Source: Phycisphaerae bacterium (GTDB taxonomy: Bacteria > Planctomycetota > Phycisphaerae > UBA1845 > UTPLA1). From it: DNA of 12,332 nt. The position numbers were made by a program, and so were the translations under genes. Location: NCBI GenBank assembly GCA_016935885.1, contig JAFGQA010000260.1, forward strand, positions 1 to 12,332. Direction: 5' to 3'. Positions 1,057-12,332 of this stretch are shown piece by piece; position 1 is the stretch's first letter; each line of letters opens with the position of its first letter. The notes beneath the pieces were generated by a model. The model saw only the letters and a list, made by a program, of their open reading frames with translations, had not been told where the DNA came from and searched no databases.

Positions 1057-3270
1057 CTAATGATCCTCAGCGCTCCTCCTCCCGCCAGGCTGATTCTCCT
1101 GGAGCAGGAATTCGACGAACAAAGGCAGCGCCATGTTATCAACCTGTCGGCCTTCGCGATCATTCACGTTTACCGTTCGGGCCTGGGCCTCTTGCCCACC
1201 CACGACGGCGATGTACGGAATCTTCGTCTTTCGCGCGCGGTGCTTCTTCGGCCCGATCTTCTCCGGCGAATCGTCCAATTCGACACGCAGCCCCGCTGCG
1301 CGGAGCCCGCCCACAACCTCACGGGCATAGGACTCGCTCTTCTCGCTGATCGTTGCGACGACCACCTGTGTCGGCGCAAGCCACATCGGGAACGCCCCCT
1401 CAAAGTGCTCGATGAGGATCCCCATGAAACGCTCCATGCTGCCGAACAAGGTGCGGTGAACCATGACCGGCTGATGCGGCTGGTTGTTCTGTCCGACGTA
1501 CGTCAGGCCAAACCGCTCCGGCAGGTTGTAATCCACCTGGACCGTGCCCAACTGCCACTCCCGGCCGATACAGTCCTTCACCAGGTAGTCGATCTTCGGC
1601 CCGTAGAAGGCCGCCTCGCCGACTTCCTCCGTCGACTTCAACCCGCTGGCCGCCACCGCCTGGCGAATCGCCGATTCCGACAACTCCCATGCCTCCGGCC
1701 GAGCGATGAACTTCTTGTGATCCGGATCGTGCAGCCCGATGCGGACTCGGTATTCGTTCAGATCGAGGATCTGCAGGACGTACCGCGTCAGTTCCATGCA
1801 GGCGGTGACCTCACGCTGCAACTGCTCCGGTGTGCAGAAGACATGCGCGTCATCCTGCGTGAACCCGCGGACCCGTGTCAAGCCGGCCAACTCGCCGGAT
1901 TTCTCGTAGCGGTAGACCGCTCCGAACTCCGCGTATCGGATCGGCAGATCGCGATAACTCCGCGGCTCACTCCTATAGATGCCGATGTGACCCGGGCAAT
2001 TCATCGGCTTGAGCAGGAAGCCGTCCGACTCCTGCAGTTGCCCTCGGATCACATCGAGGTTGTGCTCAATCTTTCCCGGCGCCGCCTGAAACCGCCTCGA
2101 CGAGGCGCGGCCGTCTCGGTCCTGGTCCGAGGAATCGCCGACCAGCCGTTCGTAGACGGCCCTGTCCACGCGTTTCAGTTCATCCAGTAGCGCATCCGCC
2201 TGGGGTGGCGGCGGCTGGTCGGGATCGCTCTCAGCCACAGCTATCCACAGGTCGTTCAGGATCATCGCGGCCTGGGAGTCATACAGCGGCGGAAACTGTG
2301 ATTCGCGGTAGTACGGGAAATGCCCGCTCGTGCGAAACAGGTCCAGCCGCCCGATGTGCGGCGTATAGACCATCTCGTAACCGTACTCGAGCAGCTTCGT
2401 CCGCATGTGCTCTTCCAACAAATGTCGGATGATGCCCCCCTTCGGCTTCCACAAGACCAGCCCGCTGCCGACCAGCGGATCGATCGTGAACAGGCCGAGC
2501 TCCTGCCCGATCCGTCGGTGGTCGCGTTTCCTGGCCTCCTCAAGCTGCGTCAGGTACGCCTTCAAATCCTTCTTGTTGTGAAAGGCGGTCCCGTTGACTC
2601 GCTGCAATTGCTGCTTGGTCGCGTCACCGTGCAGAAACACGCCGGAAACGCTCAGCACCTTGAACGCGCCGATCTTCCCCGTGGTGGGCAGGTGCGTGCC
2701 CATACACAGGTCCTCCCAGCCGTTGTCGGACGCCGACCCGGTCACATAGAAACTCAGCCGATCGCCCTTTGCCCGCTCGGCGTTCTCGACCTTATACGGG
2801 TTGTCCTCCGACCGGACCTTGGCCAGCCCTTCCTCGCGGCTCATTTCGTAGCGCGCAAACGGGCGATCCTCCTTGATGATCGCGGCCATCTCGGCCTCGA
2901 TCTTCGGGAAGTCATCTGGCGTCAGCCGATACGGCAGGTCGATGTCGTAGTAGAACCCGTTCTCCACCGGCGGCCCATAGACCAGTCTTGTCTCCGGCCA
3001 CAGCCGGCAGATCGCCTCGGCCATCACGTGGGCCGCACTGTGACGCAAGATCTCCAGCGAGTCTTCGTCGCGGGCTGTCAGGAGCCGCAGCCTGCAATCC
3101 CCGGCCAATGGCGCCGCCAGGTCGAGCGTGACTTCGCCGTTGCCGAAGTTGGCTCTTGCCCCCAGCGCGGCCTTGGCCAATCCGGCACCGAGTCCGGCCG
3201 CGACGTCCGCCGAGGAGCAGCCATTCGGCATCTCCAGTTCCGATCCGTCTGGGAGCGTTACGTGTATCAT
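1057..3270 (-). CDS. thrS: Threonyl-tRNA synthetase
   Basis: This enzyme charges tRNA-Thr with threonine and edits mischarged serine; it is a cytoplasmic class II synthetase. It has 737 residues from ATG 3270, where the family signature MIHVTLPDGS begins. The frame is open further upstream, but that extension is Cys/Arg-rich and not TGS-like. Domains: TGS 1-63; editing domain about 65-230 with H77/H81 (HSAAH) and C189/H193 (CMGTH); catalytic core about 260-625 with motif 2 around RYEKSGELAG (454-463) and zinc ligands C425 (MNCPGH), H476 (DDAH) and H605 (VHRT); anticodon domain about 632-722. The C425-H476 spacing equals that of the E. coli ligands. About 83 extra residues (331-413), polar with a PPPP stretch, sit between motif 1 and the MNCPGH zinc site. 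This explains the length compared with about 640 in E. coli. Transcription probably starts from the promoter at 3474-3501 and continues into infC. Confidence 0.98.
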   Translation of the reverse strand: MIHVTLPDGSELEMPNGCSSADVAAGLGAGLAKAALGARANFGNGEVTLDLAAPLAGDCRLRLLTARDEDSLEILRHSAAHVMAEAICRLWPETRLVYGPPVENGFYYDIDLPYRLTPDDFPKIEAEMAAIIKEDRPFARYEMSREEGLAKVRSEDNPYKVENAERAKGDRLSFYVTGSASDNGWEDLCMGTHLPTTGKIGAFKVLSVSGVFLHGDATKQQLQRVNGTAFHNKKDLKAYLTQLEEARKRDHRRIGQELGLFTIDPLVGSGLVLWKPKGGIIRHLLEEHMRTKLLEYGYEMVYTPHIGRLDLFRTSGHFPYYRESQFPPLYDSQAAMILNDLWIAVAESDPDQPPPPQADALLDELKRVDRAVYERLVGDSSDQDRDGRASSRRFQAAPGKIEHNLDVIRGQLQESDGFLLKPMNCPGHIGIYRSEPRSYRDLPIRYAEFGAVYRYEKSGELAGLTRVRGFTQDDAHVFCTPEQLQREVTACMELTRYVLQILDLNEYRVRIGLHDPDHKKFIARPEAWELSESAIRQAVAASGLKSTEEVGEAAFYGPKIDYLVKDCIGREWQLGTVQVDYNLPERFGLTYVGQNNQPHQPVMVHRTLFGSMERFMGILIEHFEGAFPMWLAPTQVVVATISEKSESYAREVVGGLRAAGLRVELDDSPEKIGPKKHRARKTKIPYIAVVGGQEAQARTVNVNDREGRQVDNMALPLFVEFLLQENQPGGRRSAEDH

Positions 3271-3685
3271 GGGGTTTCTGGCACCTGTAAAATCGGAGCA
3301 ACAACACCACCGCAATGCGAATCGGCCGCGAACCCAGGCGCAGCATCCCTGCTCTGCCGCAATACCTGGTTGCACAGCGTCGCGCTAATCACGTTGTCTG
3401 AGGTGTGTCGATCAAGGGCCGCCGTTCTCGACAGATGCGCATCAGCACCTATGCTCCCCCGAAAACCAGGAACAGTATACTACGTCCAACAGATCGGTCA
3501 AGTCACGTATCGATACGACTTTCGATTGCCGGGAACGCCGCTCTGGAAGCCGGAACCGCGTCTCCGACCACACATTGCAGGGATGTGCCGCGATTGCCAC
3601 GGCCAGTAGGGCCGCTGTCCACAGGTGGAGCCCCCCACAATCCTCAGCATAACTCCTTGTCTTACAATGGGTTGTTGATTCTCAT
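3271..3685. other. Intergenic region holding the thrS promoter and leader
   Basis: These 415 bases separate the rnfD-like stop from the thrS start. The promoter at 3474-3501 would give a minus-strand leader of about 197 nt. The leader can form a hairpin TGTCGA/TCGACA (3406-3411 with 3428-3433), and CCTGGTT at 3470-3464 is complementary to AACCAGG at 3371-3365. I see no T-box element. E. coli ThrRS represses its own mRNA through leader structures, but whether this leader does so cannot be judged by eye. The thrS ribosome site is weak: AGGTG lies 11 bases before the ATG. The part nearest rnfD contains a 50-codon frame (3498-3650) that I do not accept as a gene. Confidence 0.55.
3474..3501 (-). 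promoter_or_regulatory. Sigma70-type promoter for thrS-infC
   Basis: On the minus strand TTGACC (3501-3496) is separated by 16 bases from TATACT (3479-3474). Both boxes match five of six consensus positions (TTGACA, TATAAT). Transcription would start near 3467, about 197 nt before the thrS ATG, inside the only long gap upstream of thrS. The surrounding sequence is GC-rich, which makes a chance match less likely. No other candidate of this quality was found upstream of thrS. Confidence 0.6.
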
Positions 3686-4873
3686 CTACGCTGCCATGCC
3701 CAGGACCGGGCGCTTCATCCTGCGGTCGATGGTGGACACCAGCCAGTTCATGATCAGGATGGACCAGTAGCACTCGCCTTCCAGATGGCCATAGAGCCGC
3801 ATGAAGACGGTCAAGACGCCGATGCCCGCCGCGAAGACCAACTGCCCACGAGCCCGCATCGGTGTCGCAATCATGTCACCAGCGAGCAGAAACGCCCCGA
3901 GCATCAACTGTCCCGCGGTGAGGTGGTACATGACGTAGGCGACGCCCACGGCGTGGCCGTGCTCGACCGCCACGATGGGCAACCAGTGATACCCACCCCC
4001 ATCGCCGGCGGTTTCCACGGGCAAAACGCTGGCGGCCAATGCCGCCGAAGCCAACATCGCCACCGGTAGCTGCCACCGCAGATACCCGCGGTAGATCAGG
4101 TACAACCCCGCCACGATCAGGGCCAGGCAGCACGTCTCACCGATGCCGCCCGGCACGGTGCCGAAGACCGTGTCCTGCCAGGGCGGCAGCGCGTCCCGCA
4201 GAAGCGGCTCGTATGTGAGATCGCCGTCGGCCGGTATCTTCGCTTCCGCAAACTGGCGCAGGGCCTGAACCGGCCGCTTCATCCGCCAAGCGTCACCAGC
4301 CACCGGCTCGCCGGCCGCAGACCATCCGCGGTACGTGGCAATCGTGATGTCCTGAACCTGCGAGATATCGCCGACGAGCAGATGGCCCGGCGTCAAGATC
4401 GGGGACTGCACCAGGTCCGCCGTCGCGACCAAGGACAGTTGTCCACTGAATAGGAACTGCACTACGACGCGTCCCACCACGGCAGGCTGCCAGATGTAGT
4501 GCCCGATCCCGCCAAACAGGCCCTTGGCGAGCACGATGGCGATTAGCGAGCCAAACATGGGCACGTACCACCGTACAGTCGCCGGTAGCGTCAAGGCCAA
4601 CAGCAGGCCCGTCAGGCAGGCGTGGGACAGGCCGCCGATGACCGGCCGTCGTGTCGCGATGCCGACCGCCACGTCCGCCGCGACGGCCGACAGGATCGCC
4701 ACCGTCAACACCTTGATCGCCGCAGGGCCGAACAGGGCCACGCCGCAGGCGGCCACCATGGACGCCGCGAGCAGCCACGACCGCAGGATGTCCTGGTGCG
4801 TGTTGCCACCGCTACGGTGCGGCGCGGCACGGGCCGAGAAGTCTCCACCGACGATCCAGCAATCGTTCGTCAT
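3686..4873 (-). CDS. RnfD/NqrB-family membrane subunit, divergent
   Basis: This is an integral membrane protein of the RnfD/NqrB (NQR2_RnfD_RnfE) family, whose members pass electrons through flavin in ion-pumping redox complexes. It has 395 residues from ATG 4873; the frame continues upstream across rnfC but is not protein-like. Family landmarks in order: APHRSGGNTHQDIL (17-30), the usual RnfD opening; LALTLPATVRWYVPMFGS (92-109); KGLFGGIGHYIWQPAVVGR (117-135); GGIGETCCLALIVAGLYLIY (242-261); GDMIATPMRARGQ (332-344); and ILIMNWLVSTIDRRMKRP (372-389). About eight to nine hydrophobic segments are visible. The loop where RnfD/NqrB normally carries an S/T-G-A-T flavinylation motif reads EPVAGDAWRMKRP (189-201), with no matching threonine. 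The gene starts 37 nt after rnfC, and no rnfG, E, A or B follows. Family membership is clear; an ion-pumping role is doubtful. Confidence 0.88.
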   Translation of the reverse strand: MTNDCWIVGGDFSARAAPHRSGGNTHQDILRSWLLAASMVAACGVALFGPAAIKVLTVAILSAVAADVAVGIATRRPVIGGLSHACLTGLLLALTLPATVRWYVPMFGSLIAIVLAKGLFGGIGHYIWQPAVVGRVVVQFLFSGQLSLVATADLVQSPILTPGHLLVGDISQVQDITIATYRGWSAAGEPVAGDAWRMKRPVQALRQFAEAKIPADGDLTYEPLLRDALPPWQDTVFGTVPGGIGETCCLALIVAGLYLIYRGYLRWQLPVAMLASAALAASVLPVETAGDGGGYHWLPIVAVEHGHAVGVAYVMYHLTAGQLMLGAFLLAGDMIATPMRARGQLVFAAGIGVLTVFMRLYGHLEGECYWSILIMNWLVSTIDRRMKRPVLGMAA

Positions 4874-4910
4874 TCCGCCACCGCGGCACGGCGTCTCATG
4901 AGCTTCACCG

Positions 4911-6257
4911 CTATCTGGGTGCAACGGGTAGCTTGCCTGCCCGTGTCCACTGGGCGAATCGCAGCCGTGTCCGTTTGATCGTCGCCGCCAGGGGCAACTG
5001 CGCCGGGCAGACGTAACTGCACAACCCGCAATCCACGCAGGCGTACAGGTGCGCCAGGTCGACGGCATTGCACGAATCCTGGGCCTCCAGGTGAATCAAC
5101 TCCGATGGGTCCAACCCGACGGGACAGTCCTCCACGCACCAGCCGCAATGGACGCATGGCACAGGATTCAGGTGCTGGGTCGTCGAGAACAGCAGCAAGG
5201 CTGTCGTATCGACTGTCACCACGGCCTCATCGTTGCCGAGCGGAATGCCCGTCAAAGGGCCACCCGATATGGCCTGGCCGACACGCGCGATGATGCCCGC
5301 GCGCTGGGCGACGCGCCTCATGGGCGTCCCGACGGGAACGCGATAGGTGCCGGGGCGATCCACGGCGTCGCCGGCGATGGACATCACTGTCCGAGCCACT
5401 GGGCGGCCGTCCAACAGCGCCTGTGCGGCGGCGCGCACGGTGGCCAGCGGTAAGACAAGGGCGGCCACTTCCAGCGAGCTTTCGCCAGGAGGCACCTCGC
5501 GGTCCAGCAAAGTCTTGACAAGGACGATTGGATCGCACTGCGGGTACCGGTTGGCCAGCGGCGCAATCTCGACGTATCGCCCCTGTGCCTCGGCCTCCAT
5601 TCGCTTGACGACGCGGCGATGGCGAAACGGCAACGCAAACAAGGCGCGATGGGCTCCCAGGGCATCGGCGATCTCGCAGGTCGTGTCAATCATCCGGCCG
5701 GGCTCCTCAACCAGCGTCCGGAGATCCGCCGTGAGGTACGGCTCTGTTTCCATCGCGTTGATGATCAGATCTGTCACTCCGGCCTCAGCCGCCTGGGCCA
5801 TCACCGCGTGGGCCGGACCCCGCGGGGACGTGCAAACAACGCCGCAGTCGGCCAACTGCCTGATAAAGGATTCGCCGACCCATGTCCGCGGTGGCGGGTG
5901 CCACTCATCCTGGCCATCAGGTTCAAGGACCACACCCGGCAGGTAGCCGTCGGCCGCCGTCCACACGCGCTCCACTGCCGTGATCGTGCCCGATGTCGGC
6001 GCGTGAACGGACGCGGAGTCAGTACGAGTCGGCGCCGCCAGACGCTGCCCCCCAAGGACGCGATCGCCTACAACCACTTCGACGGCCGTTGGTAAACCGC
6101 GGCCGACCTGTAGCGGTACGTGCAGGGGCCCGTCGACCTCGATGTCCTCGATGGGACATCTCGCGGTCACGGCTTTGTGATCCGGCAGGAACAGCCCACC
6201 GTCGAAGTGCTGTCGGGGACCTCGCAGATTCGACCAGAATGACATCGCGAACAGCAT
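4911..6257 (-). CDS. RnfC-family Fe-S electron transfer subunit, divergent
   Basis: RnfC is the cytoplasmic electron-input subunit of Rnf complexes. This one has 448 residues from ATG 6257, whose A is the last base shared with the lpxA TGA; a second in-frame ATG at 6245 is also possible. The N-terminal domain has the family opening FDGGLFLPDHKAVT (18-31) and the APTSGTITAVE barrel (86-96). The middle has NAMETEPYLTAD (167-178), RYPQCDPIVLVKTLLDREVP (237-256), GDAVDRPGTYRVPVGTP (296-312) and ISGGPLTGIPL (330-340). The C-terminus has two 4Fe-4S sites, C368/C371/C374/C378 and C407/C410/C413/C417, each with a following CP. The glycine-rich FMN/NADH loop (usually GLGGAGFPT) is replaced by GVVCTSPRGPAH (139-150), so binding of NADH in the usual way is doubtful. 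It may take electrons from another donor, such as ferredoxin, or pair only with the RnfD-like protein. Confidence 0.9.
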   Translation of the reverse strand: MLFAMSFWSNLRGPRQHFDGGLFLPDHKAVTARCPIEDIEVDGPLHVPLQVGRGLPTAVEVVVGDRVLGGQRLAAPTRTDSASVHAPTSGTITAVERVWTAADGYLPGVVLEPDGQDEWHPPPRTWVGESFIRQLADCGVVCTSPRGPAHAVMAQAAEAGVTDLIINAMETEPYLTADLRTLVEEPGRMIDTTCEIADALGAHRALFALPFRHRRVVKRMEAEAQGRYVEIAPLANRYPQCDPIVLVKTLLDREVPPGESSLEVAALVLPLATVRAAAQALLDGRPVARTVMSIAGDAVDRPGTYRVPVGTPMRRVAQRAGIIARVGQAISGGPLTGIPLGNDEAVVTVDTTALLLFSTTQHLNPVPCVHCGWCVEDCPVGLDPSELIHLEAQDSCNAVDLAHLYACVDCGLCSYVCPAQLPLAATIKRTRLRFAQWTRAGKLPVAPR

Positions 6258-7093
6258 CAATCATCGGCAGCCGCGCAGTCGCCGCCGACAGCTGCGAATC
6301 GGTGGTTCGCCGCTGCCTTGCGGCCGCCGATGATGCCGAGCTTGGATTCCGAATTGATGAATTCTATGATTCTTCGACCGGCTCGCGTCCTGGCCTGGCT
6401 GGTAAACTGGACGACCGCCTTGCCGAGCGGCAGGCCTGATCGAAACAGGATACGATAGGCCTCCTTGACGTCCGCGATCTCGTCTTGCGTGAAGGCCTCG
6501 GAGCGACGCAGGCCCAGCGCATTGTAGCCGATGCAGGTCGATTCGTATAGCGCTTTCATATAAGGCGGCACGTCCTTGGTGACTCGGGACCCACCACCGA
6601 TCATGACGTATTCTCCGATCCGCGCGAATTGGTGAACCAACGTGTAACCGCTGACGATGGCGCTGTCACCCACAACCACGTGCCCGCTGAGCCCCGCGCA
6701 GTTGTACACCTTCACACCGTTTCCCAGCTTGCAGTCGTGGCCAATGTGCGCGTAGCCGAGGATGAAGCAGTTCTCACCGAGGATGGTCCACGATTCGGGC
6801 AGCGCGCCGCGGTGAACCGAGGCGAATTCACGAATGATGGTGCCAGCCCCGATTTTGCAGTAAGACCGATCGCCGTTAAAGTGAAAATCCTGCGGCAGGT
6901 GGCCCACGACCGCACCGGGATGAATCTGGCAGTGGTCACCAATCTCCGTCCAGCCGGAGATGTACGCGTTGGGATAAACCTTGACGCCCTCACCGATCTT
7001 GACCTGACCTTCTATAACGGCGAATGGGCCGATCTCCGCCGTGTCCGCGATTTCCGCCTGTGTGTCGACGATTGCCGTCGGATGGATTGCCAT
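6257..7093 (-). CDS. lpxA: Acyl-[ACP]--UDP-N-acetylglucosamine O-acyltransferase
   Basis: LpxA catalyses the first step of lipid A synthesis: it moves a 3-hydroxyacyl chain from ACP to the 3-OH of UDP-GlcNAc in the cytoplasm. It has 278 residues (the usual length is about 260) from ATG 7093, with AGGG eight bases upstream. The N-terminal two thirds is a left-handed beta helix of hexapeptide repeats (IHPTAIV, IGPFAVI, IGEGVKV, IGDHCQI and so on). The PQDFHFNGD loop (67-75), HRGAL (94-98), and H116/H119 in HIGHD match the E. coli H122 and catalytic H125 region. VTKDVPPYMK (171-180) and the IGYNALGLRR stretch (188-197) are LpxA hallmarks, and a helical tail follows. The last 25 or so residues are Ala-rich and not conserved. 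Its stop shares one base with the rnfC-like start, so the two are probably translationally coupled. lpxD, fabZ and lpxB are not neighbours here. Confidence 0.97.
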   Translation of the reverse strand: MAIHPTAIVDTQAEIADTAEIGPFAVIEGQVKIGEGVKVYPNAYISGWTEIGDHCQIHPGAVVGHLPQDFHFNGDRSYCKIGAGTIIREFASVHRGALPESWTILGENCFILGYAHIGHDCKLGNGVKVYNCAGLSGHVVVGDSAIVSGYTLVHQFARIGEYVMIGGGSRVTKDVPPYMKALYESTCIGYNALGLRRSEAFTQDEIADVKEAYRILFRSGLPLGKAVVQFTSQARTRAGRRIIEFINSESKLGIIGGRKAAANHRFAAVGGDCAAADD

Positions 7094-7337: not shown

Positions 7338-9560
7338 TTACTTTATGTAGCCGAGACTTCGAAGCTTACGTTGCAGGTCGGCGTCCTCGTCGGAGACCTG
7401 CAGTTGCTTCACCAGTGCTGCGTTTCGCTCGGCGATGATGGCCTGGGCGCGGGCCTCGACGTCGGGTTGGGCCCCAACGATGTTCTCGGTCTCGCCGGGA
7501 TCGCGGGAGAGATCGTACAGCTCGGCTTGGCCGGTGGTGGATGAGATGTACTTGTACGGGCCAAGCACGACGGCACAGAGCTCGCGACGAAGCCATTGGA
7601 CGTCCGGTTCGTGGACGAACACCTCGGTTAGGGCATAGTCGCGCCCGGCTGCCCAGACCGAGCCGGCCAGGCCCGGCGGCGGCGGTTCGCCCAGCATGTC
7701 CATGACGCTGGGATACAGATCGACGAACTGAAACCACGCCGGCACCGATGGCGGATCGTTCCGCATGGACTCTGGAAACTTGATGTACAACGGGACCCGG
7801 ACCTGGGTGTCATACGTGGATGTAACGTGGCGAAGCAGGCCGTGTTCGAGGAAGCCCTCACCGTGGTCGCCGACGATCACGATCAGTGTATCGTCGAAAC
7901 AGCCGAGCCCTTGAATGCCGTCGAACAGCCGCTGCACCTGGCTGTCAAGGTAGAGCAACTCGGCGTCGTACTGCGAAACGAGGTACTCCCGCCACTGGTC
8001 AGGAATCGCGGCCACACGGCTCATCACCCGCAGGAAATCGTCATGGGGAATGAAGCCGGCCCAATCCACGCTCACATCCGCCGGCGCAAAGCGATCCTTG
8101 ACCTCGGCCACCGGCATGTACGGATCGTGGGCGTCGAGGTAGTTCAGAAACAGGAAGAACGGTCGGTCGCCGTGCTGCCTCAACCATGCCAGGCTGCGGT
8201 CCGTGATTTCTTCTGCCCTGCGGTACGGTGGTGACCATCGGTTGTACAGCAGCGTCGATCGGCCGACGCGCTCCGGCAACTGCGACCGCACCGTTTCGCC
8301 GAACGGGATTCCCGTGATCCGGCTGGCGTGCAGCCAACTGATCTGCTCGCCGCGGAAGGTGCCGCTTGGGGCCACGTCGTAGTAGTCGAAGCCGCGGCTC
8401 AACCCGTAGCTCCCCAACACGGCGTGGTTGGCCACGATGCCGGCGGTCTGGAAGCCGAGCCCGCTGAGCTGCTCCGCCAAGGTCGGCAGATCATCACGCA
8501 GTGGGTAGCCATACTCCGGCCGCGGGCCTTCGTGTACGAGAAACTGCCCGTGCGCCCCGTGCACGTGCGCATACAGGCCGGTAAACATCGATGCGTGCGA
8601 AGGCAGCGTGGATGGCGCGGTCGCGAGAATCGTCCGGGCCACGTCGCACTCCTGACGAGCGAACCGCGACAGGGCCGGCATCGTCTCGCGGGGATAACCG
8701 AAGTCGTTGAGGTGGTCCGCACGAACGGTGTCCAGCACGACCAGCAGGATGTTCGGTACGCCCTCGCGATCGGGCGGGTGCCCCAGCGGTGCCTGGCGGA
8801 CGTGCCATCCCAGGTCGAAGGGAAAGACGGCATGGCTGAGACCGACGGACAACGCAGCCAGCGCCGCCAAGCCGGCCAAGGCGGCCTGCGGCCTGCGCTC
8901 CCCGGTACCAATCGCGGCCGGCGTTGCCCGGCAGGCGATAACGACCATCAAGACGAGCGGAATACTGAGCATTCCCAACGCTGCGGCCGAGATGCGACCG
9001 AAGCCAGGCAGATCGGGCGCGACCTGAGGCAACGTGGTCGCACCGATATTCAAGAACCCCAGCGCCAATGAGGCGATGACCATGTTGCCGAACGAACCGG
9101 CCCGCCGATAGCCCAGGCCCAGCAGGATGCCCGCGATGGTCGCGTTGACCGCCAGGGTCGGCACCAACGTCGAGCCTTCTCCTCGCCCAAACAGGATCAG
9201 CCAACCGATGGCCGTGTGCCCCACTACGATCGCACACCAGAACAGCCGTCGTCGCCCGATGCCAGTCTCCCAGGCGTCGACACGCCCGGTTGCCCTCTTT
9301 ATGACCAGCCCGACGATCCAAACGCAGACGCCGGCCGCAACACCGATTAGCCCGTAGAGCGCCAAGCTGATGAGCCGGTCCAGTGGCCGCACTGGGACGT
9401 CCCATAGCGCGTGGACCACCGATTCGGCGACGGCGTGCGCGATGCCCACCACGCCGCCCAGCAAGGCGGCCTCCGGCGCGGCCCGCCGGTAGGAAAGATC
9501 ACGTGGCTGCGTGTCGCCCTGCATTGGGTGCTTATCGGCGCCATGCGGCGCGCCCTTCAT
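7338..9560 (-). CDS. Membrane-anchored sulfatase-fold hydrolase or transferase with Thr at the nucleophile site
   Basis: This protein of 740 residues starts at ATG 9560. Residues 30-250 are six to seven hydrophobic segments (for example 63-87, 106-125, 131-151, 190-209). Residues 267-680 are a sulfatase/alkaline-phosphatase-superfamily domain, probably facing the periplasm. Metal site parts: D277 in LDTVRADH, H478 in DAHDPY, and D565/H566 in VGDHGEGFLEHG. The active-site segment reads STLPSHASMFTG, with T318 where FGly sulfatases have Cys or Ser (CxPSR). Thr cannot be converted to formylglycine, so classical sulfate ester hydrolysis is unlikely. A Thr nucleophile is used by LtaS and EptA phosphotransferases, which also join membrane helices to this fold. 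The C-terminus LRSLGYIK is typical of sulfatase-like proteins in these bacteria. Being next to lpxA, it could modify lipid A or another envelope glycolipid, but this is only an inference from position. Confidence 0.88.
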   Translation of the reverse strand: MKGAPHGADKHPMQGDTQPRDLSYRRAAPEAALLGGVVGIAHAVAESVVHALWDVPVRPLDRLISLALYGLIGVAAGVCVWIVGLVIKRATGRVDAWETGIGRRRLFWCAIVVGHTAIGWLILFGRGEGSTLVPTLAVNATIAGILLGLGYRRAGSFGNMVIASLALGFLNIGATTLPQVAPDLPGFGRISAAALGMLSIPLVLMVVIACRATPAAIGTGERRPQAALAGLAALAALSVGLSHAVFPFDLGWHVRQAPLGHPPDREGVPNILLVVLDTVRADHLNDFGYPRETMPALSRFARQECDVARTILATAPSTLPSHASMFTGLYAHVHGAHGQFLVHEGPRPEYGYPLRDDLPTLAEQLSGLGFQTAGIVANHAVLGSYGLSRGFDYYDVAPSGTFRGEQISWLHASRITGIPFGETVRSQLPERVGRSTLLYNRWSPPYRRAEEITDRSLAWLRQHGDRPFFLFLNYLDAHDPYMPVAEVKDRFAPADVSVDWAGFIPHDDFLRVMSRVAAIPDQWREYLVSQYDAELLYLDSQVQRLFDGIQGLGCFDDTLIVIVGDHGEGFLEHGLLRHVTSTYDTQVRVPLYIKFPESMRNDPPSVPAWFQFVDLYPSVMDMLGEPPPPGLAGSVWAAGRDYALTEVFVHEPDVQWLRRELCAVVLGPYKYISSTTGQAELYDLSRDPGETENIVGAQPDVEARAQAIIAERNAALVKQLQVSDEDADLQRKLRSLGYIK

Positions 9561-9566
9561 AGTCAA

Positions 9567-9570
9567 CTCC
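9567..9570 (-). promoter_or_regulatory. Ribosome binding site that sets the sulfatase-like start
   Basis: GGAG on the minus strand (9570-9567) lies six bases before ATG 9560 and directly abuts the in-frame TTG at 9566. The spacing therefore favours ATG 9560 over the TTG two codons upstream. Confidence 0.6.
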
Positions 9571-9688
9571 GATCACCACGAGCCGATTTACAGTGGTGTG
9601 GGCGTTGCATCTGTAGTAGCGCCGGCGGGATGCTGGCGCTGAACGAATCCAGCAGCGGGACATCCGCGGCACGAGGATTCACTGGTGG

Positions 9689-9709
9689 GGCGCCGGCGCC
9701 ACAGGGGGC
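9689..9709 (+). promoter_or_regulatory. 12-bp palindrome and ribosome binding site before the GT2 gene
   Basis: GGCGCCGGCGCC (9689-9700) is a perfect palindrome. It is followed by AGGGGG at 9703-9708, eight bases before ATG 9717, which supports that start. The palindrome could sit in the mRNA as a short hairpin next to the ribosome site, or be an operator. A weaker inverted repeat, AGCGCC (9618-9623) with GGCGCT (9635-9640), lies further upstream. I found no convincing -10/-35 pair for either divergent gene in 9561-9716. Confidence 0.4.
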
Positions 9710-9716
9710 CCATGCC

Positions 9717-10991
9717 ATGGAACGCTGTGAGGCCACGTCCGAAGCCTGTCAAGCCGTATCGTCGCCGATCGTGACGCTGGAAACCCACGAGGGACCTTGC
9801 GCGGATGACGCGTTTGAGCTGACCGTTCTGATGCCTTGTCTCGACGAGGCGGAGACGCTTGAGCGGTGCATCCGCACGGCGCAGGGGTGTCTGAACCAGC
9901 ACGGCATCCGTGGTGAGGTGCTGGTAGCCGATAACGGCAGCACGGACGGCTCAGTGGAGATCGCCCGGCGTTGTGGGGCTCGCGTCGTCAACGTGCCGGC
10001 GAGGGGATACGGCAACGCCCTCCGCGCTGGCAGCGAGGCCGCCCGGGGCCAGTACATCATCATGGGCGACGCGGACTGCAGCTACGACTTCTCGGCCCTG
10101 ATGCCGTTCGTGGAGAAGCTCCGTGCCGGCAACGACCTGGTCATGGGCACTCGCCTGAGGGGCAGGATCATGCCCGGGGCCATGCCGTGGAAGCACCGCT
10201 GGATCGGCAACCCGGTCCTCACCGGGCTCGGCCGGCTGTTCTTCGGCATCTCGATGAGCGATTTCCACGCCGGCCTGCGTGGCTACACCAAGCGGGCCTT
10301 CAAGGAGATGGACCTTCAGACGACGGGCATGGAATTCGCAAGCGAGATGGTGATCAAGGCCCGCCTGAAGAACATGAAGATGGACGAGGTGCCGATCACG
10401 CTGTACCCGGACGGCCGCTCGCGACGGCCGCACCTGCGGAGCTGGCGCGACGGTTGGCGTCACCTGCGGTTCATGTTGTGCTATAGCCCGCGGTGGTTGT
10501 TCCTGTATCCGGGGACGGCCCTGTTCGCGGTGGGGGCGTTGATCCTTGCGGCGTTGGCAGCGGGTCCGAGGACCATCGGGGGCGTGACGCTTGACACCAA
10601 CACGCTGGCGGTCGGTGGGTTGATGAGCGTAGTGGGCTTCCAGGTGGTAGTCTTTGCATTGTTCTCGTCGGTGTACGCGGTTTCGCAGGGCTTGTTATCA
10701 CAGGATCAGAGCCCGCTGGCCGCGTTTCGGAAGCACGTCACGCTCGAAGCCGGCGTCTGCACCGGCCTGATGTTCGTGCTGGTCGGCGTCGGCTCGATAG
10801 CGCGCGTGTTCCACGAATGGTGGGCCGGCGCTTTCGGGCCGCTCGATCCCTCGGCAACGGTGCGATTCGTGGTCCTGGGAGTCGTGCTGGTCGCATTGGG
10901 CGTTCAGGCGGGCTTCTCGAGCTTTCTGCTGTCGATCCTTGGGATGACGCGAAGGCACGGAGATGAACGGCGGATAGCGGATAGCGGATAG
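9717..10991 (+). CDS. GT2 glycosyltransferase, DPM1-like, with C-terminal membrane helices
   Basis: This is probably a polyprenyl-phosphate glycosyltransferase that moves a sugar from a nucleotide donor to a lipid phosphate on the inner membrane. It has 424 residues from ATG 9717, chosen for AGGGGG eight bases upstream; the frame is open back past 9411 but overlaps the divergent gene and is not conserved-looking. The GT-A domain (34-255) has LTVLMPCLDEAETLE (35-49), VADNGSTDGS (70-79), the DxD metal site GDADCSYDF (117-125), MGTRLRG (143-149) and the acceptor-side motif SDFHAGLRGY (181-190), all characteristic of DPM/DPG synthase relatives. Hydrophobic segments at about 261-282, 297-325, 344-363 and 383-409 give it a membrane domain. 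It could charge the carrier lipid used by the GT39-like enzyme encoded convergently at 11059. The sugar cannot be told from sequence. The stop codon lies inside a triplicated 7-mer. Confidence 0.92.
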   Translation: MERCEATSEACQAVSSPIVTLETHEGPCADDAFELTVLMPCLDEAETLERCIRTAQGCLNQHGIRGEVLVADNGSTDGSVEIARRCGARVVNVPARGYGNALRAGSEAARGQYIIMGDADCSYDFSALMPFVEKLRAGNDLVMGTRLRGRIMPGAMPWKHRWIGNPVLTGLGRLFFGISMSDFHAGLRGYTKRAFKEMDLQTTGMEFASEMVIKARLKNMKMDEVPITLYPDGRSRRPHLRSWRDGWRHLRFMLCYSPRWLFLYPGTALFAVGALILAALAAGPRTIGGVTLDTNTLAVGGLMSVVGFQVVVFALFSSVYAVSQGLLSQDQSPLAAFRKHVTLEAGVCTGLMFVLVGVGSIARVFHEWWAGAFGPLDPSATVRFVVLGVVLVALGVQAGFSSFLLSILGMTRRHGDERRIADSG

Positions 10992-10992
10992 C
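10972..10992 (+). repeat. Three tandem copies of GGATAGC across a stop codon
   Basis: GGATAGC is present three times back to back (10972-10978, 10979-10985, 10986-10992). Because the unit is 7 bp, each copy is read in a different frame; the TAG of the last copy (10989-10991) ends the GT2 gene. Gain or loss of a copy would shift frame and move the stop. Confidence 0.9.
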
Positions 10993-11022
10993 GAATTGTG
11001 AACAAAGCGACGTGAGGGTTGG

Positions 11023-11054
11023 CCGGGACCCCGGATGGGTGCGCGCTCCGCGCG
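11023..11054. terminator. Two short GC hairpins between convergent genes
   Basis: CCGG (11023-11026) with CCGG (11031-11034), and GCGCG (11041-11045) with CGCGC (11049-11053), lie in the 67-bp gap between the convergent GT2 and GT39-like stops. Position suggests a shared two-way terminator, but the stems are short and there is no T-run in either direction. Confidence 0.25.
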
Positions 11055-11058
11055 ACGA

Positions 11059-12332
11059 TCAACTACAGGGCTTCATCTGGCGGGCCGCCTCGTCGTACAC
11101 ATACGCCCGTCGATCAGGATTGGCTTTCATCAATTCGACATTGCGCTCCCCGCCCAGATCGTGGGCGAAGATGCTTTCTGCCCGTTCCAGATCCGGCTCG
11201 TTGAAGACGTACTCGCGGTGGAAGGAATGATCCGGCGCGTAGCGGACGAAGATCAGCTTGGGGCCCGGCGGCAATGACGCCACGAGGTTGTGGAATCGGC
11301 GCGTCGGTGGGTCCAGGCCGAGGCTCGCCAGCCGGTGGGCCGCCCAGAATGAACCGATGACAATCAAGGCCACAAGCAGCAACTCCAGGACGTGATACGG
11401 CCCCTTCGCACCCTTTGAACCGTTTGCACGCCTTGGGCGCAGACCGGCTCTCTGCGCCACCGATTCCACGGCACAACGTGGCTCGTCATTGGGTCCAAGA
11501 GCCCCCGGCCCTGGCAGTGGGGTGGCTGTGTGGCCTGTCTGAGCGTGCCCCCCGACCAAGGTCGGGGGCTCTTGGGCCTGTGGCACCGGCGTCTCGCCGG
11601 TGGGGTCACGGGCGGGACGCCCGGGCCACACTTTGGTTGCGGCCGGAGGCCGCGCTGTGCCGCACTTTGGCCGCGGCGGAAGGCCGTGATTGGGATCGGG
11701 TGCGCATGAACCGCTCTCCTGGCGCACGCTCCGCAGCCCCGCCATCATCGACCAGACGAGCCCTGCCACGATCGGCGCCAAGTATCGAGGGTAGTCGAAT
11801 GCATAAAGCAGGTAAGCGGCGAAGAAGCCAATACAGACCCAGATGAGAGGCCTTGCGGCACGGCAGGACCATGCCGCGGGCGGCGCAACAAACGGCAGCA
11901 GCAACATGGCAAAGCCCAGGTCGCGCGACAGGGCCGCGAAGCGGACGGCGATGGTGAGCGGCAGGCGTGCGAACGTGTGCCGGCGGTGTGCGGGAGCCGT
12001 GAAATCCTCGGCAAGTCTCCTGACGTTGACCGGCATGGACTGAAGATTGGGCGGCGGCGCCGGCGACCCGTGGAGGAATTGGCCGCTGTAGCTTTGTTGC
12101 TGCTCATACAGCGTGTATGGGCCGTGCTTCCAGTCGCCGGTGGTTGCTTGGTGGTAGGCAAGCAGGCCCGCGACGCCCGGAAGCCCGCCCAGACACAGCG
12201 CCACCAGCCACCGCCCGTTCGCGCGGGAGCGAACGCCGCCGACAGCTAGCAGCCTGTGGCAAAACTGTGGCACCGGCGTCTCGCCGGTGGTTTTTACGGT
12301 CAGGAACGGCGTTTCCGATCCGCCGTTTTCCC
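11059..12332 (-). CDS. GT39/ArnT-like membrane glycosyltransferase, 3' part, with repeat-derived insert
   Basis: The frame is open to the window edge, so the gene starts outside; 423 codons are visible and GTG 12273 is only an internal codon. The visible part has hydrophobic segments RWLVALCLGGLPGVAGLLAY, GFAMLLLPFVAP, LIWVCIGFFAAYLLYAF and YLAPIVAGLVWSMMAG, and later VLELLLVALIVIGSFWAA. It closes with a soluble tail containing LIFVRYAPDHSFHREYVFNEPD. The ATTGDWKHGPYTLYEQQ loop and DYPRYLAPIVAG segment resemble the later half of GT39-type polyprenyl-sugar transferases; the catalytic N-terminal Asp/Glu loop would lie off the edge. Between two membrane segments, about 98 codons (11404-11697) are Pro/Gly/Arg-rich and made of palindromic repeats, without a stop. 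A second repeat copy in the same frame sits at 12265-12290. The protein may tolerate a long loop, or the gene may be decaying. Family call moderate. Confidence 0.7.
   Translation of the reverse strand, partial: ENGGSETPFLTVKTTGETPVPQFCHRLLAVGGVRSRANGRWLVALCLGGLPGVAGLLAYHQATTGDWKHGPYTLYEQQQSYSGQFLHGSPAPPPNLQSMPVNVRRLAEDFTAPAHRRHTFARLPLTIAVRFAALSRDLGFAMLLLPFVAPPAAWSCRAARPLIWVCIGFFAAYLLYAFDYPRYLAPIVAGLVWSMMAGLRSVRQESGSCAPDPNHGLPPRPKCGTARPPAATKVWPGRPARDPTGETPVPQAQEPPTLVGGHAQTGHTATPLPGPGALGPNDEPRCAVESVAQRAGLRPRRANGSKGAKGPYHVLELLLVALIVIGSFWAAHRLASLGLDPPTRRFHNLVASLPPGPKLIFVRYAPDHSFHREYVFNEPDLERAESIFAHDLGGERNVELMKANPDRRAYVYDEAARQMKPCS
11495..11575. repeat. Inverted repeat and palindrome inside the GT39-like gene
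   Basis: CCAAGAGCCCCCGGCC (11495-11510) is the reverse complement of 11560-11575 with one mismatch in 16. The right arm overlaps a second palindrome, CCCCCGACC (11549-11557) with GGTCGGGGG (11560-11568) around AA. On the coding strand the palindrome is read as QEPPTLVGGHAQ. The arms enclose 49 bases. I see no transposase and no target duplication. Confidence 0.75.
11578..11603. repeat. 26-bp dispersed palindromic element, copy B
   Basis: The core is CACCGGCG (11584-11591), TCT, CGCCGGTG (11595-11602), an 8-bp stem with a 3-base loop, preceded by CTGTGG. It is identical over 26 bases to copy A at 12265-12290. On the minus strand it is read as TGETPVPQ inside the GT39-like gene. A second small palindrome, CGGGCG-GGA-CGCCCG (11609-11623), follows at once. 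Confidence 0.85.
11629..11690. repeat. Two imperfect tandem units CACTTTGG-GCGGCC-hairpin
   Basis: CACTTTGG is found at 11629-11636 and 11663-11670, 34 bases apart, each followed by a GC-rich stretch able to fold; the first is a perfect GCGGCC-GGA-GGCCGC hairpin (11639-11653), the second is degraded. They form the right end of the repeat mosaic in the GT39-like gene and are read on the minus strand as a PPRPKCG/PPAATKVWPG type sequence. Confidence 0.7.
12265..12290. repeat. 26-bp dispersed palindromic element, copy A
   Basis: This copy is identical to copy B, with stem CACCGGCG (12271-12278) and CGCCGGTG (12282-12289). It lies exactly 687 bases (229 codons) from copy B, so it is in the same frame and again encodes TGETPVPQ. 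CTGTGGCA is also duplicated just beside it (12254-12261 and 12265-12272). On the plus strand the stem is followed by G and five T, which resembles an intrinsic terminator pointing right, opposite to the gene. Confidence 0.85.

Follow-up and report, generated by a model that had tools for sequence, protein, structure and literature searches.

A stretch of 12,332 nt from a Phycisphaerae bacterium (contig JAFGQA010000260.1), called the window below, carries two neighbouring genes that resemble rnfC and rnfD of the Rnf complex and code for an iron-sulfur (Fe-S) protein and an integral membrane protein, respectively. The two genes are separated by 37 nt. They are preceded by lpxA, and a gap of 415 nt, counted with the ThrS start placed by choice at the ATG at 3270, lies between the rnfD-like gene and thrS. 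Besides the pair and lpxA, the Pfam and NCBIfam scans named infC, thrS, a sulfatase-family protein and a GT2 glycosyltransferase. No rnfA, rnfB, rnfE or rnfG was named by these scans of the main open reading frames (ORFs) of the window. The preliminary description of the locus had reported the same picture, namely an RnfC-like/RnfD-like pair 37 nt apart, lpxA before it, a 415-nt gap to thrS and no rnfG, E, A or B beside it, and it is borne out on each of these points by the ORFs and the family assignments. No RNA family was found in the window at the gathering score. A terminator scan of positions 3200-3760 gave none, and two promoter-like matches fall in the same stretch.

Pfam recognizes the domains RnfC_N, Complex1_51K and 4Fe-4S dicluster in the RnfC-like protein, which also exceeds the cut-off of the NCBIfam subfamily TIGR01945 (266.2 vs 245.95 bits). 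Its alternative in-frame ATG at 6245 coincides with the start of P0121 and of many homologues. The RnfD-like protein lies far above the cut-off of PF03116 (223 vs 27.7 bits), the sole Pfam domain that it shows, and under that of the subfamily TIGR01946 (162.9 vs 207.05 bits). AlphaFold models were obtained with a confidence (predicted local distance difference test, pLDDT) of 95 for RnfC and 90 for RnfD, and the best structural match was a solved RnfC for the former and a solved RnfD for the latter. Full-length homologues, up to 75% identical for RnfC and up to 77% for RnfD among the matches listed, indicate at the sequence level that the pair is far beyond chance. Coordinates are collected in Table 1.

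Table 1. Features of the RnfC–RnfD locus. Coordinates are positions in the 12,332-nt window; those of protein X carry the name of the relative's locus.
Feature	Position	Strand	Remarks
RnfD-like integral membrane subunit	3686-4873	-	start ATG 4873-4871
Asp333 of RnfD	3875-3877	-	aligned with the riboflavin-flanking Asp248 of Clostridium tetanomorphum RnfD, kept; role according to excerpts of PMC9588780
DAWRMKRP segment of RnfD	4271-4294	-	at canonical D-A-[IV]-[TS]-x-A-[TS]-P; Arg in place of the flavinylated Thr/Ser
RnfC-like subunit	4911-6257	-	alternative start ATG 6245; barrel-sandwich domain, NuoF-like domain, two 4Fe-4S motifs
Second 4Fe-4S motif of RnfC, CVDCGLCSYVC	5007-5039	-	
First 4Fe-4S motif of RnfC, CVHCGWCVEDC	5124-5156	-	
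Place of the canonical GxGGAxFPTHVK loop of RnfC	5808-5846	-	here CGVVCTSPRGPAH; motif lost
lpxA	6257-7093	-	stop codon 6259-6257 overlaps RnfC ATG 6257-6255 (TGATG)
Sulfatase-family protein, about 740 aa	7338-9566	-	upstream of lpxA, same strand
Protein X, example 1	L002:7438-8580		
Protein X, example 2	L003:7453-8592		
Protein X, example 3	L012:6917-8011		

Relatives of the pair were collected in several ways. A search of a protein collection (E <= 0.001) returned 219 RnfD and 178 RnfC homologues, the best 120 of each being listed. When genomes were scanned, one for each species, 43 stretches matched a pattern and 18 loci among them were confirmed; 17 of these are labelled as Planctomycetota or as a group within it, and the remaining one as 'bacterium' only. 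Forty further loci were added to these 18. The nearest relative of the window among the genomes compared is G001, and 60 of the 397 genomes from its class reach at least 268 bits with the RnfD profile A1, which rules out a feature confined to the window. The 50 loci examined comprise 46 of these 60 together with the window, G008, G010 and G017. They are divided by RnfD profile score into subgroup I (450 bits or more; 16 loci, one being the window and the others coming from 15 genomes) and subgroup II (34 loci; 255 to 450 bits). Loci L133-L136, which have canonical motifs, and L137-L141, which belong to a more divergent family, stand outside the 50 loci and the 50 RnfD rows. The 50 RnfC rows include L139 and L140 and leave out L017, which is short, and L113, in which no RnfC was found. 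An artefact of one assembly was also ruled out, the pair being present in many genomes including the chromosomes CP030884.1 (G009) and CP070691.1 (G015), both of which are without PF02508, the family of RnfA/E and NqrD/E.

RnfC adjoins RnfD or is fused to it in 49 of the 50 loci of the two subgroups, the exception being L113. In L011 the RnfC part and the RnfD part are read in one open frame (8465-11098), a natural fusion. That RnfC and RnfD form an old, self-contained membrane electron-transfer module is well supported.

The RnfC proteins have kept their clusters and changed elsewhere. Both CxxCxxCxxxC motifs are present in 49/50 RnfC rows, the remaining one (L124) being a fragment. The first motif reads CxxCGWC, with a Trp placed after the Gly and before the third Cys, in 45 of the 50 rows vs none of the 30 canonical ones. 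The loop motif G-x-GGA-x-FP, present in 30/30 canonical rows, occurs in none of the 50. Residue by residue, no row of the 50 has all three loop Gly, the Gly-Gly pair or the Phe, and 1/50 has the Lys, vs 30/30 for each in canonical RnfC. The loop Pro is retained in 31/50 rows, and a single aligned Gly in 1, 4 and 4 of the 50 at the three positions. According to excerpts of PMC9588780, the flavin mononucleotide (FMN) of RnfC has the NuoF-like domains on one side and the Fe-S domain on the other. It could be argued that the pair is still linked to NAD(H), RnfC holding FMN and NAD(H) through other residues: the window protein exceeds the TIGR01945 cut-off, its NuoF-like domain is whole and well modelled, and the segment ETEPYLTAD is retained in most subgroup I rows, as is the loop Pro in the rows counted above. 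This is nevertheless improbable in view of the loss of the Gly trio, Gly-Gly pair, Phe and (in all rows but one) Lys, which all canonical rows possess.

RnfD has lost the signature of its covalent flavin. The flavinylated position is Thr in 26 and Ser in 7 of the 33 canonical rows; in the 50 pair-type rows it is Arg in 28, Pro in 9, His in 5, Val, Ser and Thr in 2 each, and Tyr and Leu in 1 each. The Asp at the riboflavin site (Asp248 of C. tetanomorphum) is conserved in 16/16 subgroup I rows, including the window. The position of Asn124, which adjoins riboflavin in C. tetanomorphum RnfD (excerpts of PMC9588780), is Asn in 33/33 canonical and 1/50 pair-type rows, and that of Glu185 is kept in 47/50 pair-type rows. 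The RnfD model also matches ammonium/urea transporter folds. A transport function was not adopted on this ground, a channel-like fold being known for canonical RnfD itself (excerpts of PMC9588780). In a wider form of the same idea the pair would be a redox-inactive remnant whose channel-like RnfD transports or scaffolds and whose RnfC serves as an NqrA-like support. The fold that canonical RnfD shares and the two Fe-S motifs of nearly every RnfC row both speak against such a remnant, which we regard as quite improbable.

The other Rnf genes were searched for in the genomes of the relatives rather than in the window's own genome. PF02508, FMN_bind (RnfG/NqrC) and ApbE were each found in 0/15 subgroup I genomes, and rnfB (TIGR01944) over its cut-off in 0/9 of the subgroup I genomes examined and 3/18 in all. 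In 14 control genomes, matches over the cut-off were obtained for PF02508 in 4, FMN_bind in 4, ApbE in 7 and rnfB in 5. Single absences are weak because most genomes are metagenome assemblies; zero out of 15 three times over is not. G009 is a single chromosome of 5.48 Mb, and the main contigs of G439 and G411 amount to approximately the whole genome. The preliminary description had held that a complete rnf cluster elsewhere, lacking only C and D, would refute its reading; in the subgroup I relatives no such set was found, with RnfA/E in 0/15 genomes.

A split Rnf, in which rnfCD and rnfABEG would occupy different places of one genome and work together, does exist in L133-L136, where rnfCD is locally alone, the motifs are canonical and the RnfA/E pair is on another contig. 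Isolation at one locus is therefore no proof of independence. RnfA/E is also present elsewhere in 22/34 subgroup II genomes. The subgroup I relatives have none of RnfA/E, FMN_bind and ApbE (15/15), and the two flavin-site motifs that the split loci retain are gone; for the subgroup I relatives a split Rnf is refuted within the completeness of the assemblies. In G008, G014 and G018, from subgroup II, RnfA/E, FMN_bind, rnfB and a canonical RnfD are found at another place, so that the pair coexists with a full Rnf complex there. A split Rnf is thus very unlikely overall. The argument for the probable independence of the pair is the combination of motif loss and genome-wide absence.

Phylogeny also sets the pair apart. 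In the RnfC tree, 49 pair-type rows are split from 27 others with a support of 99 (Shimodaira-Hasegawa-like approximate likelihood ratio test, SH-aLRT). The 27 comprise 19 planctomycete canonical rows, 4 split-locus rows and those of Escherichia coli, Azotobacter vinelandii, C. tetanomorphum and Acetobacterium woodii; 11 canonical rows (thinning) and the fragment L124 were left out. In the RnfD tree, the pair-type rows and the divergent five (L137-L141) are on one side (SH-aLRT 100), the five falling among the pair-type rows. When 11 rows labelled NqrB were included and the divergent five taken out, the pair-type rows again formed one side (100). Canonical RnfD is not one group in this tree, and the pair may therefore have arisen within the Rnf family. 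These are quick, unrooted trees, with long branches for L011, L013 and L008 in that of RnfC. The check proposed in the preliminary description, whether paired C-D homologues form their own clade, thus came out in its favour, RnfC and RnfD both being set apart with no nesting in canonical clades. In the divergent family itself, the riboflavin Asp is lost in 5/5 loci; L139 and L140 combine the divergent RnfD-like protein with a short RnfC-like protein, and no RnfC was found in L137, L138 and L141.

The pair can be read as a membrane oxidoreductase of two subunits that stands alone, pumps no ions and descends from the RnfC/RnfD half of Rnf, a reading to which we attach a probability of roughly one half. 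The electron path of Rnf runs through FMN_D, riboflavin, [4Fe-4S] RnfC-2, RnfC-1, FMN_C and NAD+ (excerpts of PMC9588780). Judged by its motifs, the pair appears to retain the middle of this path and to have lost the signatures at both ends. With neither the RnfC loop motif nor the RnfD flavinylation motif left, NAD(H) is an unlikely partner, and these losses agree with the missing RnfG and ApbE. Neither loss had been anticipated in the preliminary description. In place of NAD(H), a soluble, ferredoxin-like carrier of single electrons in the cytoplasm would dock on RnfC, in or close to the cleft that formerly took FMN/NAD(H). Electrons would cross both [4Fe-4S] clusters to reach riboflavin, held non-covalently in the cytoplasm-facing half of RnfD, and would pass from there to a membrane acceptor, most simply a quinone as in NqrB, where the quinone lies 11.6 A from riboflavin (excerpts of PMC10643135). 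The flow could also be in the reverse direction. According to excerpts of a recent study in A. woodii (PMC11889175), RnfA/E are the subunits that bind Na+ in the model, and Na+ is translocated by them and not by RnfD; since RnfA/E are missing, no ion pumping is expected from the pair.

Several observations weigh against this reading of the pair as an independent oxidoreductase. The role of the G-x-GGA-x-FP loop in binding FMN and NAD(H) is presumed by analogy with complex I, and the RnfC of the window still scores above the TIGR01945 cut-off. At the flavinylated position of RnfD, Ser or Thr persists in 4/50 rows, with the surrounding motif gone in all four. Binding of riboflavin is uncertain because the Asn124 position is Gln, His or Met in 16/16 subgroup I rows and because the riboflavin Asp is replaced by Glu in 21 of the 34 subgroup II rows, Asp remaining in 13. 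Matches to rnfB below the cut-off occur in 18/18 genomes, many of them being ferredoxin-like stretches. PF02508 is present away from the pair in 22/34 subgroup II genomes, on contigs other than that of the pair in 20 of the 22 and far away on the same chromosome in G008 and G014; cross-talk with RnfA/E elsewhere in the genome is therefore possible in these 22. Finally, the electron donor, the acceptor and the direction of flow are ones that we infer. The two-subunit module put forward in the preliminary description accordingly holds as regards the pair as a unit with two 4Fe-4S clusters, its own clade and its relatives without the rest of Rnf, and stays conjectural as regards donor and acceptor.

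The gene neighbourhood bears on what the module serves. In 11/16 subgroup I loci lpxA lies within three genes upstream, including L009, whose RnfC is 52% identical to that of the window. The preliminary description had left the choice between an envelope-linked role and a chance operon. Chance is unlikely because the coupling to lpxA is conserved in these 11 loci; it suggests that the pair serves the envelope, a role that remains a suggestion, and the neighbours differ in subgroup II. There, a PpiC/SurA-like lipoprotein is encoded one or two genes upstream in 10/34 loci (checked with Pfam in one of these loci). The remaining neighbours are varied and include an O-antigen ligase (L008), ScpB and QueE/QueD-like and NfnAB-like (L015) proteins. 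From raw neighbour counts, a slant towards the envelope seems visible.

A membrane protein of about 380 aa, protein X, is encoded one or two genes upstream of the pair in 6/16 subgroup I loci. It has 69 homologues, five His are invariant in 32 aligned members, and neither a Pfam family nor a solved relative was found (one chain at E 2 only). X occurs in 10/15 subgroup I genomes, 0/34 other pair-bearing genomes and 0/20 genomes without the pair. For 24 of the 69 homologues the length of the longest contig, matched by eye, equals that of an RnfC or RnfD homologue, which suggests that the two share a contig. An obligatory partnership was ruled out, five of the 15 subgroup I genomes, including G001, being without X. 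These neighbours bring in the idea of an electron exporter, in which RnfD would send electrons outward to a partner in the periplasm or the outer membrane, such as X or another envelope redox protein, as proposed for two-subunit Nqr/Rnf-like systems. The recurrence of envelope-type genes (lpxA, X, the lipoprotein) and the restriction of X to subgroup I genomes are in keeping with export, but the periplasmic-side covalent flavin motif is lost, FMN_bind is lacking from all 15 subgroup I genomes and X itself from a third of them. We consider an exporter unlikely.

Further genes were noted next to some pairs. QueE-like genes lie downstream of the pair in L119, L123, L124, L129 and L132 (subgroup II), and QueD-like genes in four of these five and in L109, all recognized by eye. 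In L015, NfnA/NfnB-like genes (L015:11516-13858) follow RnfD by about 350 nt; the first has the Pfam domain DHODB_Fe-S_bind and the second was identified by eye.

The module, read as a non-pumping oxidoreductase, can be compared to three known systems. It shares with the Rnf complex the folds, the gene order C-D, the two 4Fe-4S motifs of RnfC and, in subgroup I, the riboflavin-site Asp of RnfD. It differs by the absence of RnfA/E, FMN_bind and ApbE (15/15 subgroup I genomes) and of rnfB over the cut-off (9/9 examined), by the loss of the FMN/NAD(H) loop motif in RnfC and of the covalent-FMN motif in RnfD, and by its separate clade. The pair is not classed as an Rnf complex because defining features of that complex were tested and found lacking. 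NqrA-NqrB of Na+-NQR is the corresponding half of a related pump, in which the flavin site of NqrA is also lost and riboflavin of NqrB passes electrons to quinone. NqrA however has no Fe-S clusters, whereas the RnfC of the pair keeps both motifs, and PF02508 (NqrD/E) and FMN_bind (NqrC) are absent in subgroup I; NqrF was not searched for. The Nqr/Rnf-like two-subunit systems (Meheust et al. 2021, PMC8238504; PMC10979944) resemble the pair, as far as excerpts of these papers go, in their RnfD/NqrB-like core, their unconserved flavinylation Thr and their apparently non-covalent flavin. In the same excerpts they are made up of a fusion of the RnfD-NqrF type accompanied by ApbE and an RnfG-like protein that is flavinylated. 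The partner in the pair is instead an RnfC that carries Fe-S motifs, and subgroup I has neither FMN_bind nor ApbE. No RnfD-NqrF fusion (PF00175) was seen, the RnfD of the window showing PF03116 only.

The RnfC–RnfD pair is thus a variant of the Rnf family, distinct from the Rnf complex proper. No account of it in Planctomycetota appeared in the open-licence literature, as judged by titles and the openings of abstracts among the matches listed. As a tentative and somewhat doubtful proposal, half of an Rnf pump, stripped of two flavin sites and of the pumping subunits, may have been reused in Planctomycetota as a quinone-linked Fe-S oxidoreductase feeding envelope chemistry related to lipid A, with X as partner in one lineage. 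The finding warns that the annotation 'RnfC' or 'RnfD' in Planctomycetota does not imply energy conservation by ferredoxin:NAD+ oxidoreduction. It suggests that Rnf is modular, its C-D half being able to live without RnfA/E, the periplasmic flavoprotein and ApbE, and with the pair there is a naturally occurring case in which to ask which half of Rnf and Nqr pumps ions.

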